From IMG/VR virus record IMGVR_UViG_3300013111_000300, positions 1-21,304 of that record: 21,304 nucleotides of DNA. One strand, written 5' to 3'. Below the pieces are notes generated by a model that had not been told where the DNA came from, searched no databases, and saw only the letters and a list, made by a program, of their open reading frames with translations. Below, piece after piece: positions 585 to 12,094 of the stretch. The translations under genes and the position numbers were made by a program. Numbering within the stretch: position 1 is the first letter of the stretch; each line of letters opens with the position of its first letter. The DNA comes from a virus.

Positions 585-1187
585 CTAGTATTCCGTGATT
601 CCCCTCACACATTCGATGACAATCTCGTCAATCTGATCTTCCCCGAGCTCTAAATACAGAGTAGTCGTTTCAACGTTGGCATGCCCGAGCGCTTGCTGTG
701 TAAGGTATAGGTTTCTTCCGCTAGCCTCAAACACCGAATTAGCGAAGGTTTTCCGCATTGAGTGAGTGCCGATGGTGCCTTCCAGCTCGTTCTCTTTCGC
801 CGCTCGGTTTATAACCCGGTAAGCATGTTCTCTCGTCATAGGCTGATCCAAGGTGGGCTTGCCGCTGAACAGAACCGCGTCGTCAAACAGCCTACCGCGA
901 TCCGCGATCTCGTCAATGTATGCTTTCAAGGCTTCTTGCGCCCTGGGATGCAACTTGACAGTACGAGATGTTTTCTTGCTCTTCATGCTCTTGCGCTGAA
1001 CGGACACACGATCCGTTACCTTGCTCCCCTGGAAAACGTCTTTTACTCTCAAGCTCAACAGCTCCGTGATCCTGAATCCGGTGGCGCGGCCCAGCCAGAA
1101 CAGCGCCCGGTTTCGTTTCTCATGCTTGCCGTAGAACGTCTTGCTTATCAATTCACATTCCTCGTTAGTTAGCGGTCGGCACCTCAT
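585..1187 (-). CDS. Minimal tyrosine recombinase / integrase
   Basis: This is a 200-residue tyrosine site-specific recombinase reduced to the catalytic domain. The catalytic set is visible: Arg39 in ATGFRITELL, a candidate Lys in the basic KSMKSKKTSR segment (residues 66-75), His142 and Arg145 in THSMRKT, His169 in LGHANVETT, and the nucleophile Tyr178 in LYLEL. Family members normally have an extra N-terminal core-binding domain of about 80-100 residues, which is absent here. The ATG at 1185-1187 has a GGAGC ribosome binding site and overlaps the upstream stop as ATGA. It sits inside the leftward operon rather than beside an obvious attachment site, so it could act as an integrase or as a Xer-like resolvase of phage DNA multimers. 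The family is certain and the exact role is not. Confidence 0.9.
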   Translation of the reverse strand: MRCRPLTNEECELISKTFYGKHEKRNRALFWLGRATGFRITELLSLRVKDVFQGSKVTDRVSVQRKSMKSKKTSRTVKLHPRAQEALKAYIDEIADRGRLFDDAVLFSGKPTLDQPMTREHAYRVINRAAKENELEGTIGTHSMRKTFANSVFEASGRNLYLTQQALGHANVETTTLYLELGEDQIDEIVIECVRGITEY

Positions 1188-6413: not shown

Positions 6414-6580
6414 CGGTTGCTCCTTTCGTGTCTCACTTCGGGCTGTTTCGTCCTTTTGGACTCGTCACAGGCAGGGCGCACACCCCACGACAGCCCGCCC
6501 GGAGGCGGGGGTGATTACTTTACTTTCCCGTGATAATGAAGCGTATGCGAATTGGTTGGTTCTCTGTGTCTCATATCTAT
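6414..6580 (-). other. 5' leader of the leftward operon
   Basis: About 160 bases lie between the predicted leftward transcription start and the first leftward gene, with no convincing gene on either strand. The minus-strand transcript can form a GC-rich six-pair hairpin with a four-base loop (6494-6509) and a small GTCC-AAAA-GGAC hairpin nearer the gene. An AAAGGAGC site lies just upstream of the ATG. A TTTACTTT copy sits at 6519-6526. No T-run follows the hairpin, so it is not a classic terminator. It could affect mRNA stability or translation. Confidence 0.5.
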
Positions 6581-6609
6581 AATATACACTGGGTTTCAGG
6601 GCTTGTCAA
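6581..6609 (-). promoter_or_regulatory. Strong leftward sigma-70-type promoter
   Basis: On the minus strand, TTGACA (6604-6609) is followed by exactly 17 bases and TATATT (6581-6586). This is a perfect -35 and a five-of-six -10 with ideal spacing. It faces the leftward operon, whose first gene begins about 160 bases downstream. The tandem AAAGTAAA repeats adjoin the -35 box, so regulation from them is plausible. Confidence 0.8.
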
Positions 6610-6611
6610 CA

Positions 6612-6633
6612 AAAAAGTAAATAAAAAGTAAAA
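6612..6633 (+). repeat. Tandem 11-bp repeats between divergent promoters
   Basis: Two adjacent 11-base units, AAAAAGTAAAT and AAAAAGTAAAA, sit one helical turn apart between the two outward-facing -35 boxes. The same AAAGTAAA core recurs as TTTACTTT at 6519-6526, 8410-8417 and 8416-8423, and as AAAGTAAA at 8488-8495 and 8495-8502. The position suggests operator sites for a protein that controls both promoters, for example the ribbon-helix-helix product encoded just downstream, or replication iterons. Confidence 0.7.
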
Positions 6634-8340: not shown

Positions 8341-8615
8341 AAGTTTAATTTCCGTTTAATTTCCCAAAATGGCGCAACCTCTAGTGTCATAAGCGATTAA
8401 CCCCAAAAGTTTACTTTTACTTTCGATCCGCAACTCTTTTTATATAGGGCTTTTATATACACCCTCATGTACATACTTCTGCATATAAAAGTAAAAAGTA
8501 AATATATCCTTGTTATCTCTGACAGCCTAATGAGTTAGGTGCGTTTAAGTAGGGTTTAACTTTTAATTTCTGCATTACTCATACCGTGAACCCTCTGTCA
8601 CACCCGAGACAGCAC
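8341..8615 (+). other. AT-rich repeat-bearing intergenic region, candidate origin
   Basis: No gene is supported here on either strand. The region holds two TTTAATTTCC copies 11 bases apart (8344-8353 and 8355-8364) and a third TTTAATTTC at 8562-8570. Two overlapping TTTACTTT lie at 8410-8423 and two AAAGTAAA at 8488-8502. An inverted repeat CTTTTATAT (8450-8458) / ATATAAAAG (8483-8491) and a CCTAA-TGAG-TTAGG hairpin (8526-8539) are also present. Dense short repeats, AT-rich tracts and position next to an SF3 helicase fit a replication origin. A regulatory region for the late promoter is the alternative, and both may be true. Confidence 0.5.
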
Positions 8616-8644
8616 TTGACACACCCCGATTAAAAGTGTAGAAT
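8616..8644 (+). promoter_or_regulatory. Strong rightward promoter of the late operon
   Basis: TTGACA (8616-8621) is followed by 17 bases and TAGAAT (8639-8644). This gives a perfect -35, a five-of-six -10 and ideal spacing. It precedes the sulfotransferase gene and, with no terminator in sight, the whole packaging and structural operon. A CTGTC/GACAG inverted repeat (8595-8612) lies just upstream of the -35. Confidence 0.8.
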
Positions 8645-8652
8645 ATTCTACA
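8637..8652. promoter_or_regulatory. Perfect 16-bp palindromic operator over the -10 box
   Basis: TGTAGAATATTCTACA is a perfect palindrome covering the whole -10 box and reaching the predicted transcription start near 8651. A dimeric repressor bound here would block polymerase. Spacing differs from the E. coli LexA box (CTGT-N8-ACAG), so LexA is not the obvious ligand. No cognate repressor gene is recognised in this window. Confidence 0.7.
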
Positions 8653-8668
8653 GCATGGCGGTGAGCCG

Positions 8669-9277
8669 ATGATAATCTCGCATAAACACCAGTTCATATT
8701 CATCAAGACGTTCAAGACAGCGGGTACGTCTATTGAGATGTACCTTGCGCAGTTCTGCGGGCCTGACGATATCCTTACGCCGGTAAACCCTGCGGCTGGC
8801 GAACACGAACCCCGCAATGGCGACGGCTATGAGCAACACATGACGGCCGAGCAGGTGCGGGCGAGGGTAGGATCGGATACCTGGGCCGAGTATCTTACTT
8901 TCTGCGTCGAGCGTAACCCGTGGGATAAGACGGTATCTCACTTCTTCCATGATCGTGCACACCACGGCGGGCCGGACACGTTCGGCGAGTACATACGGCG
9001 CGGACATTTCCCACATAATATGCAGTTCTATACTAACGGCACGGGCGCACCGATAGTCGATGAGGTGCTACGGTACGAAACGATCAACGCGGATCTGACT
9101 CGTGTGTTCAAGAGCCTGGGGATACCGTTCGCTGGTGCGCTCAATGTATGGGCGCTATCGCTGAGCCGTGAGGATAAGGGCCATTACAGCCGGTTTTACC
9201 CGCCGGAGCATCGAGGCGTGATCGAGGGCGCGTTCGGCAGGGAAATCAGAATGCACGGATACACGTTTGATGAGTGA
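8669..9277 (+). CDS. Phage-encoded sulfotransferase
   Basis: The 202-residue protein has both cofactor-binding signatures of PAPS-dependent sulfotransferases. KTAGTS at 16-21 is the 5'-phosphosulfate loop and RNPWDKTVS at 82-90 is the 3'-phosphate motif. The C-terminal YETINADLTRVFKSLGIPF and HYSRFY segments match the compact bacterial Sulfotransfer_2-type layout. It would move a sulfuryl group from PAPS to a hydroxyl or amine acceptor, often a sugar; the acceptor here is unknown. It is the first gene after the late promoter and overlaps the methyltransferase start by eight bases. The ATG has only a weak GGTGAG site and overlaps the stop of a five-codon mini-ORF. A cell-surface glycan is the likeliest target by family habit, but that is inference. 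Confidence 0.88.
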   Translation: MIISHKHQFIFIKTFKTAGTSIEMYLAQFCGPDDILTPVNPAAGEHEPRNGDGYEQHMTAEQVRARVGSDTWAEYLTFCVERNPWDKTVSHFFHDRAHHGGPDTFGEYIRRGHFPHNMQFYTNGTGAPIVDEVLRYETINADLTRVFKSLGIPFAGALNVWALSLSREDKGHYSRFYPPEHRGVIEGAFGREIRMHGYTFDE

Positions 9278-10475
9278 CAAGCGCAAAATAGACGAGCTGA
9301 TACCGGATGCGGATAACGCCAACCTCGGCACTGACCGTGGGCGCGAGCTGCTAAAGCAATCGCTGGCAGACTTCGGTGCTGGCCGTTCGATATTGCTCGA
9401 CAAGGAAGGCCGGATTATTGCCGGTAATAAGACCGTCGAGGGAGCGCGTGAGGTCGGCATCGATGACGTGGTGATCGTGCGCACGACAGGCAACCAGCTT
9501 GTGGCTGTCCAGCGTGATGATCTCGACCTGGAGGACGGCGACGGGCGGGCCAGGCGGCTGGCGTATGCCGATAATCGGATAGCGGAGGTTGATCTCGAAT
9601 GGGACGTTGACCAGATAGTCAAGGACATCGAGGCGGGTGTTGATATCGAGGGCATGTTTGAGGGGTTCGAGCTACCGACACCGGAACGCGAAGGGCTGAT
9701 CGATGATGACGACGTGCCGGAACCCGAGGAAGCGATTACGAAGCTGGGCAACTTGTGGACACTCGGCGAGCATCGGTTACTGTGCGGCGACGCGACGAAG
9801 GGCGAGGATGTTGAGCGGTTGATGGATGGGGAGAAGGCGGATTCGATAGTTACCGATCCCCCGTTTTTCACACCAGCGGCACACTATCAATCGCGGGTCA
9901 AGCATCAGCGCAAGTTTGCAGATTTAAGCACCCTGTCAGGTTTTTGGGAACAGGTTCACAATGCATTTATGCCATATCTAAAAAGCGAAGGGCATAGCAT
10001 CGTTTTCTGTAACCATGACAGTTACGCAGTGTTCTATCCGGTAATGTTTTCACGCTACGACAAGACGAAGAGCCTTGTGTGGGATAAAACCCGCGTTGGT
10101 TTAGGGCGTATATTCAGAAACCAACACGAGTTGATAATATGGGGCAGAAATGAAGGGCATTACTTTAAGCCCGATGGTGATCTACATGCTGACGTGCTGA
10201 GCTATGCGGCAACGCTTTCAAAGGACAGGGAGCACCCGGTCGAGAAGCCAGTTGCATTGTTAGTCGCGCTCGTGACGCCGCTAACACCACAAAAGGGCGT
10301 TAGCGTTGATTTATTTGCAGGTGGCGGCTCAACCCTCATCGCTTGCGAGAAAACGGGCCGCCGCTGTTACGGCATGGAAATCGACCCGCACTATTGCGAT
10401 GTAATAGTCAACCGCTGGGAGCAGTTCACTGGTGAAAAGGCTGTCTTGATGTCAACAAATAAAAAGGCGCAATGA
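9270..10475 (+). CDS. ParB-like nuclease domain / DNA methyltransferase fusion
   Basis: The 401-residue protein starts with a ParB/Srx-like domain (residues about 5-105, with DKEGRIIAGNKTVEGA at 44-59). It continues as an amino-group (N4-cytosine or N6-adenine) DNA methyltransferase. The catalytic motif is DPPF at 196-199, a variant of DPPY. HPVEKP at 322-327 and the AdoMet-binding DLFAGGGST at 347-355 follow, giving the beta-class motif order. Such fusions are common beside phage terminases and probably protect phage DNA or mark it. The ATG at 9270 overlaps the sulfotransferase gene; a TTG three bases earlier is possible. GC content falls sharply after DPPF, about 55-60% before against about 40% after, suggesting a recombined 3' half. 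Confidence 0.9.
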   Translation: MSDKRKIDELIPDADNANLGTDRGRELLKQSLADFGAGRSILLDKEGRIIAGNKTVEGAREVGIDDVVIVRTTGNQLVAVQRDDLDLEDGDGRARRLAYADNRIAEVDLEWDVDQIVKDIEAGVDIEGMFEGFELPTPEREGLIDDDDVPEPEEAITKLGNLWTLGEHRLLCGDATKGEDVERLMDGEKADSIVTDPPFFTPAAHYQSRVKHQRKFADLSTLSGFWEQVHNAFMPYLKSEGHSIVFCNHDSYAVFYPVMFSRYDKTKSLVWDKTRVGLGRIFRNQHELIIWGRNEGHYFKPDGDLHADVLSYAATLSKDREHPVEKPVALLVALVTPLTPQKGVSVDLFAGGGSTLIACEKTGRRCYGMEIDPHYCDVIVNRWEQFTGEKAVLMSTNKKAQ

Positions 10476-10479
10476 ATGA

Positions 10480-10851
10480 ATGTCGAAACCGACGCTAAAC
10501 ACGAAGGAAGTTGCCAAGCTCATAAAGAAACACAAGGGCTTCCTATCGTACGTGGCGAAGGAGCTTGGATGTTCATACCGCACGATCCACCGATACACGG
10601 TAAAGTACGCCTGTTGCAAGGACGCTTACGCGGAAGCGAAGGAGTCCCGCAAGGACTTCGGCGAGGCGATGCTGATCAAGAATATGAAAGCGGGCAAGGA
10701 CGCGAGTATCATATTCTTTCTCAAGACCCAGGCGAAGGATCGCGGCTACGTGCAGGACGACAAGCGGCACGATACTGAGGCGTTGAAGGAAGCGGTGGAC
10801 AGGATTAACGCGGTCCACAATGCACTGAAATTGGACGATGGCGAAAAGTAA
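10480..10851 (+). CDS. terS: Terminase small subunit
   Basis: The 123-residue product has a helix-turn-helix near residues 20-45 (FLSYVAKELGCSYRTIHRY), a helical middle, and the MLIKNMKAGKDASIIFFLKT segment followed by KDRGYV. This last block is typical of phage small terminases that recognise the packaging site and load the large subunit. It lies directly before the large terminase gene and overlaps it by 14 bases. The start is the ATG at 10480, four bases after the methyltransferase stop, with an AAGG site in the preceding coding region. An ATG four bases earlier is in another frame. Confidence 0.8.
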   Translation: MSKPTLNTKEVAKLIKKHKGFLSYVAKELGCSYRTIHRYTVKYACCKDAYAEAKESRKDFGEAMLIKNMKAGKDASIIFFLKTQAKDRGYVQDDKRHDTEALKEAVDRINAVHNALKLDDGEK

Positions 10852-12094
10852 CACACAACCATATTTCAGCTTGAAGCAGAAGCAGGTATACCACCGGGCG
10901 CACCGTAAAATTAATATCCTGTCCGGCAGCATGACCAGCGGCAAGACGTACATCACGAACCAGATATGGATTGACCGGCAGCTTGGCGCACTCGGCCCGA
11001 TACCTGACGGCGATTCGATTATCGTCGGGCGAACGCTTGGCACGGTACGACAGAACGTCATTAACCCGATACTCAAGATGGCGGGCGCATTGGCCCGGAT
11101 ACGACGTGAGGACGGATTGAGTTACCTCCACATCGGCGAACGCCGGGCGTGGTATGTAGGCGCTGACAAGGAATCCGAGTACACAAAAATCCTGGGTAAA
11201 ACGTTTGCTGATGGATACGCTGATGAGCTGACAGAGATACCCGAAAGCGCGGCGTCACAGGCTATCGGCAGGACGCGGGGCCGGTTCTTCGGTACCACGA
11301 ACCCCGGCTCGCCGTATCACTGGCTGAACCGCGAGTATATCAGTCAGTCCCGTGACGATACGTATTGCGCGACGTTCGGACTACTCGACAACCCGTCTCT
11401 GAGCGACGAACAGCGGGCCGATATTCTGTCACGGCTCAAGGGCCTGTTTTTCAAGCGATACGGTCAAGGGTTATGGGTAGCAGCGGAGGGCGTGATTTAT
11501 GATATGTTCGACCCTACGGAACTATTACCGGCGGCTGATGCGCCCGATACGGGAGATAGAAGCGTTGCTGGCATCGATTACGGAACATCAAACCCGTGCG
11601 TTTATGGATACTACCGACGACATGAAGGACGAGTCTATAAGCTCGACGAATGGCGATGGGACAGCCAGGAAACCGGACGACAAAAAACAGATAGCCAGTA
11701 CGCCGACGACTTTACCGCTTGGCTCGGACGACGTCCACTTGATTACATAGTCTGTGACCCGTCAGCGGCGAGCCTCAAGGTAGAGCTTCGATTACGCGGT
11801 TACATGGTGCGTGATGGAGACAACGACGTTCTCGCGGGCATACGGCACACTGCCGAAATGCTCGGCTCCGGGCGGCTGGTTATCACTGAGGGCTGTCCGA
11901 ATACGGCGTTGTCACTGTCGGCCTACTCATGGGATCCAGCGGCACAACGGCGGGGTCAGGATAAGCCATTGAAACAGCACGACCACGAAGCGGACGAGAC
12001 GCGATACATAACGATGGACTTGATACCGCCGATGGTTGGTGATACTGATATGCCTCAGACAGCGGGCGTAACCGAGAGCGTAAGGGTAGCTTGA
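10838..12094 (+). CDS. terL: Terminase large subunit (PBSX/Terminase_3-like)
   Basis: The 418-residue protein is the packaging motor. The ATPase domain has Walker A SGSMTSGKT at 29-37, an acidic Walker B-type DELTEI near 129-134, and an FGTTNPG coupling motif near 151. The nuclease domain has an RNase H-like Asp247 in AGIDYGT and DYIVCDPSAAS further on. It pumps DNA into proheads and cuts concatemers. Length is normal for the family. The stop overlaps the portal start as TGATG, and no frame break is seen. No intein or insertion is present. Confidence 0.95.
   Translation: MAKSNTQPYFSLKQKQVYHRAHRKINILSGSMTSGKTYITNQIWIDRQLGALGPIPDGDSIIVGRTLGTVRQNVINPILKMAGALARIRREDGLSYLHIGERRAWYVGADKESEYTKILGKTFADGYADELTEIPESAASQAIGRTRGRFFGTTNPGSPYHWLNREYISQSRDDTYCATFGLLDNPSLSDEQRADILSRLKGLFFKRYGQGLWVAAEGVIYDMFDPTELLPAADAPDTGDRSVAGIDYGTSNPCVYGYYRRHEGRVYKLDEWRWDSQETGRQKTDSQYADDFTAWLGRRPLDYIVCDPSAASLKVELRLRGYMVRDGDNDVLAGIRHTAEMLGSGRLVITEGCPNTALSLSAYSWDPAAQRRGQDKPLKQHDHEADETRYITMDLIPPMVGDTDMPQTAGVTESVRVA

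Follow-up and report, generated by a model that had tools for sequence, protein, structure and literature searches.

Sulfotransferases are a recurring class of auxiliary genes in phages (PMC10580990, PMC8290583), and their role there has been stated as unclear (PMC10580990). Gene clusters for sulfated capsules also carry sulfotransferases (PMC11641403), and the temperate phage Kapi1 modifies the O-antigen that is its own receptor, for which superinfection exclusion was proposed by the authors (PMC8787464). The sulfotransferase gene described here was found in a viral record of IMG/VR, the whole of which (21,304 bases) was analysed and is called the window below. The features of the window referred to in the text are the following.

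585..1187, minus strand: tyrosine integrase gene, on a phage contig with head genes
8341..8668, no strand: intergenic control region, 38% GC, with four AAAGTAAA boxes (8410-8502)
8616..8644, plus strand: sigma-70-type promoter TTGACA-17-TAGAAT, consensus match 11/12
8637..8652, no strand: perfect 16-bp palindrome TGTAGAATATTCTACA, covering the -10 box of the sulfotransferase promoter
8669..9277, plus strand: sulfotransferase gene, 202 aa, from PAPS motifs, homology, predicted fold, and conserved His57
9270..10475, plus strand: ParB-N6/N4 DNA methyltransferase, 8-bp overlap with the sulfotransferase gene at ATGAGTGA; ORF listed from TTG 9267
10480..10851, plus strand: possible terminase small subunit, weak match (phrog_309, E=0.0024)
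10838..12094, plus strand: terminase large subunit, from family matches and alignment to known phages

The complete 202-residue ORF with both PAPS motifs, as given in the original prediction, was reproduced exactly in coordinates and motif positions. The intact frame of 202 codons runs from ATG 8669 to the stop codon at 9275-9277, and KTAGTS and RNPWDKTVS occupy residues 16-21 and 82-90, respectively. When the protein was searched against known families, PHROG 3347 (galactose-3-O-sulfotransferase) matched residues 1-153 (E=1.1e-7), while with the Pfam family PF03567 (Sulfotransfer_2) it reached 19.3 bits, which is below the gathering cut-off of 22. Since a relative 28% identical to it scored 63.8 bits with the same family, the window protein appears to be a divergent Sulfotransfer_2 relative lying outside the curated members. 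Single-sequence scans of a phage collection and IMG/VR gave no close viral relatives; plasmid homologues were matched over the full length (E=8e-47, approximately 40% identity), and viral relatives surfaced only after an alignment had been built through these plasmid sequences. The scan with this alignment detected 119 viral loci in IMG/VR, and 253 others came from genomes of bacteria and archaea, the nearest sequences being bacterial with 40-50% identity (50% for the best ones). The view that a sulfotransferase is out of the ordinary here was thus only partly right, considering the 119 viral relatives, PHROG 3347, and the enzymes of the phages RSL1 and SIO1.

Eight viral relatives (L101, L102, L107, L108, L111, L112, L116, and L117) are approximately 500 residues long, of which about 280-300 form an additional region at the C-terminus; in L101, this region weakly resembles GH43 (E=8e-5, below the cut-off). 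One viral contig (L164, 1263-8633) contains at least six sulfotransferase-family ORFs in a single stretch, and a relative on a Pseudosulfitobacter plasmid (L088, 8001-8675) has a stop codon inside and is annotated as two genes.

In the alignment of 56 sequences, K16, Y75, R82, N83, P84, and S90 were invariant (56/56). The 5′-phosphosulfate motif (residues 13-21) has the sequence of the binding loop, K13-T-F-K16-T-A-G-T-S21, and the 3′-phosphate motif (residues 82-90) has its Arg and Ser, with R82, N83, P84, and S90 all present. His57 was kept in 55 of the 56 sequences and, judging from this pattern, is likely to be the catalytic base. Near the C-terminus, in the AKS..R stretch, the window protein has L163 where 54 of 56 rows have lysine, so that this mark of the subfamily is missing. 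The AlphaFold2 model calculated from the 56-sequence alignment (mean pLDDT 95.4, pTM 0.91) has the predicted alpha/beta fold of sulfotransferases, and its best PDB matches by Foldseek were PAPS sulfotransferases (E to 8e-6, TM approximately 0.55 by query length). By sequence, a PDB search with the single protein found nothing and that with the profile gave just weak SULT matches; the matter was decided by the fold search. Motifs, homology, and predicted fold all agree with the proposed sulfotransferase identity, and the comparison of structures found the sulfotransferase fold in the model; these three lines support the reading of the gene as encoding a PAPS-type sulfotransferase.

The gene is similar in composition to its neighbours (GC 0.557, GC3 0.665), and, considering also its position between phage genes and the 8-bp overlap, a stray host fragment is unlikely. 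In a quick tree, the window protein fell among 47 rows from bacteria (SH-aLRT 87). The careful 56-row tree left its place unresolved, and the window protein and the viral rows as a single clade were not rejected (p-AU 0.26); the end branch of the window protein was long (0.7-0.83). Judging from identity, the gene is likely of bacterial origin, a question that the trees do not settle. Two further IMG/VR contigs of the same phage (L082 and L083/L251) are 99.9% identical to the window from 11297 on, and as both begin at 11297, inside the terminase gene, the sulfotransferase part of the window rests on one assembly. A chimera joined at this position is unlikely because the terminase aligns full-length to that of Streptomyces phage Raleigh; known phages also give alignments that cover most of the terminase.

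Exopolysaccharide clusters surround the relative at nine Rhodobacterales loci, on two plasmids of Leisingera, in Salipiger, and in six other genomes of the order. These clusters contain genes for polysaccharide export, Wzc-like proteins, and glycosyltransferases as well as more sulfotransferases, and directly downstream of the relative there is a GH16 gene. The relative on Sinorhizobium pSymB is near polysaccharide pyruvyltransferase and glycosyltransferase genes, while the neighbours in Caulobacter, Lysobacterales, and Planctomycetes were mixed or unrecognised. Some viral relatives adjoin GT8 or other glycosyltransferase genes, methyltransferases, or an aminotransferase, and some of the phage contigs that carry them also encode UvsX or ribonucleotide reductase. 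Because the nearest annotated bacterial relatives are in exopolysaccharide clusters, the substrate class with the best support is a host surface glycan. The proposal of host surface glycans as substrate therefore stands in this form, as an argument from relatives, of which only those in Rhodobacterales have a clear exopolysaccharide setting.

The original prediction also described the gene as the first one of a late operon directly following a strong late promoter. A strong promoter consensus does lie directly upstream, ending 24 bp ahead of the start codon. Sites matching at least 11 of the 12 consensus positions were found twice in the window compared with 0.125 expected by chance, and the second one is on the minus strand (6609-6581), facing the leftward gene block. 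The palindrome TGTAGAATATTCTACA over the -10 box is operator-like in sequence; it had one exact match, where 0.02 would be expected even allowing up to three mismatches. The window has seven AAAGTAAA boxes (0.52 expected in its whole length), every one of them in one of two intergenic control regions (6519-6632 and 8410-8502), a clustering that is partly due to both regions being AT-rich. Promoter consensus, palindrome, and boxes point to regulated expression without indicating that it is late. As for the operon, the gene is the first in the block leading into the terminase and head genes: it is followed by the methyltransferase, which more likely starts at ATG 9270 in ATGAGTGA than at the listed TTG 9267, by the weak candidate for the terminase small subunit, and then by the terminase, portal, protease, and major capsid genes. 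Upstream of the sulfotransferase gene, however, the same strand also carries a small ORF and a primase gene, for which the scan gave no relatives. Thus, the promoter was borne out by its consensus, the rank of the gene as the first of an operon is less certain, and “late” is an assumption in both statements. Of the attributes of a moron in the strict sense, the gene has a promoter of its own by consensus only (the 11/12 site at 8616-8644) and lacks a terminator setting it apart from its neighbours: it overlaps the next gene, and the stretch from 8669 to 9400 showed no terminator-like site. The tyrosine integrase gene makes a temperate life style likely; consequently, expression of the sulfotransferase in the lysogen is as open as late expression.

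Considering these results, we give a probability of roughly 0.5 to the following explanation, in which the activity of the enzyme, its sugar substrate, and any advantage for the phage are our inference. The phage lineage would most likely have acquired a carbohydrate sulfotransferase from a bacterium. PAPS would be supplied by the host, as no APS kinase gene was found in the window, and in the cytoplasm the enzyme would transfer sulfate to a sugar hydroxyl, either of a host polysaccharide or of the lipid-linked precursor. The more negative surface glycan could then make it harder for competing phages, or for the progeny of the phage itself, to adsorb. Several points count against this explanation: the argument for the substrate class comes from relatives only, among which those outside Rhodobacterales had mixed or unrecognised neighbours in Caulobacter, Lysobacterales, and Planctomycetes; L163 replaces the conserved lysine; and the window proteins scanned included no recognised glycosyltransferase. 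The extended form of the idea, that the phage, possibly as a prophage, sulfates the host surface polysaccharide and so excludes other phages in a sulfate version of serotype conversion, is put forward tentatively and seems rather doubtful; no experimental case of it was found in the literature searched.

The location of the gene directly upstream of the packaging and head genes, in the same direction, would also suit an enzyme that sulfates a product of the phage itself, a virion protein or virion glycan, during assembly, and the glycosyltransferases adjoining some viral relatives would fit as well. We consider this unlikely, since the closest relatives with annotation come from bacterial polysaccharide clusters, no glycosyltransferase was recognised among the window proteins scanned, and the searches gave no similarity to protein-tyrosine sulfotransferases. 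It is similarly improbable that the gene is decaying or has lost its sulfotransferase activity. The substitution at L163, the long end branch, and the lack of a close relative in the other viral records searched could be read in this way, but the frame of 202 codons has stayed intact despite only about 50% identity to the nearest relatives, neither His57 nor any residue of the PAPS motifs has been lost, the promoter consensus is strong, and the fold is predicted with confidence.

A slightly less probable explanation is that the enzyme sulfates a small molecule (a metabolite, lipid head group, or defence signal) or drains PAPS. The best PDB fold matches were SULT enzymes, which act on small molecules, and some relatives are near oxidoreductase or TonB-receptor genes; however, at 11-16% identity, the SULT matches reflect the common fold, and the sequence family is Sulfotransfer_2-like and of the carbohydrate type. 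Finally, a joint modification role with the overlapping DNA methyltransferase, for which the 8-bp gene overlap suggests translational coupling, is very improbable and was not supported, because the pairing is not conserved in either search direction: sequence search found a sulfotransferase in none of 80 ParB-methyltransferase loci from viral contigs (0/80), and only 4 of 49 viral records with a sulfotransferase hold an N6/N4 methylase, none of them adjacent. The sulfotransferase family search in 33 of the ParB-methyltransferase records was also negative, a weak result since no control genome matched PHROG 3347. As far as seen, the overlap is particular to this phage.

Returning to sulfation of the host polysaccharide, the preferred explanation, the closest known counterparts are the sulfotransferases of Rhodobacterales exopolysaccharide clusters, for example the Leisingera and Salipiger proteins (WP_260008595.1 and WP_066111560.1, both annotated as “hypothetical protein”), which share approximately 40% identity over the full length and the same motifs with the window protein. 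They differ in belonging to a polysaccharide cluster of a bacterium, where GH16 is their partner, in having about 27 additional residues, most of them located between positions 50 and 57, and in keeping the lysine where the window protein has L163. Phages with sulfotransferase genes were already known, and the window gene adds another. The match to the phage family PHROG 3347 (moron/auxiliary) is distant and leaves the C-terminal quarter of the window protein unmatched, while the sulfotransferase-like protein of Ralstonia phage RSL1 (TM 0.69 by query length, 21% identity) and Gp5.1 of Roseobacter phage SIO1 (TM 0.63 by query length, 16% identity) have a similar predicted fold and come from other types of phage. 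Because exopolysaccharide clusters hold some of its relatives, its promoter consensus is defined, and the protein is short and modelled with confidence, the window sulfotransferase offers a testable substrate class. O-antigen modification by Kapi1 and the Shigella seroconverting phages (PMC8787464), which in the Shigella cases is glucosylation or acetylation rather than sulfation, has no sequence link to the window protein; the shared proposed logic is to alter a sugar on the host surface that serves phages as receptor. If surface sulfation is true, it would be a further chemical modification among the known means by which phages alter host receptors.
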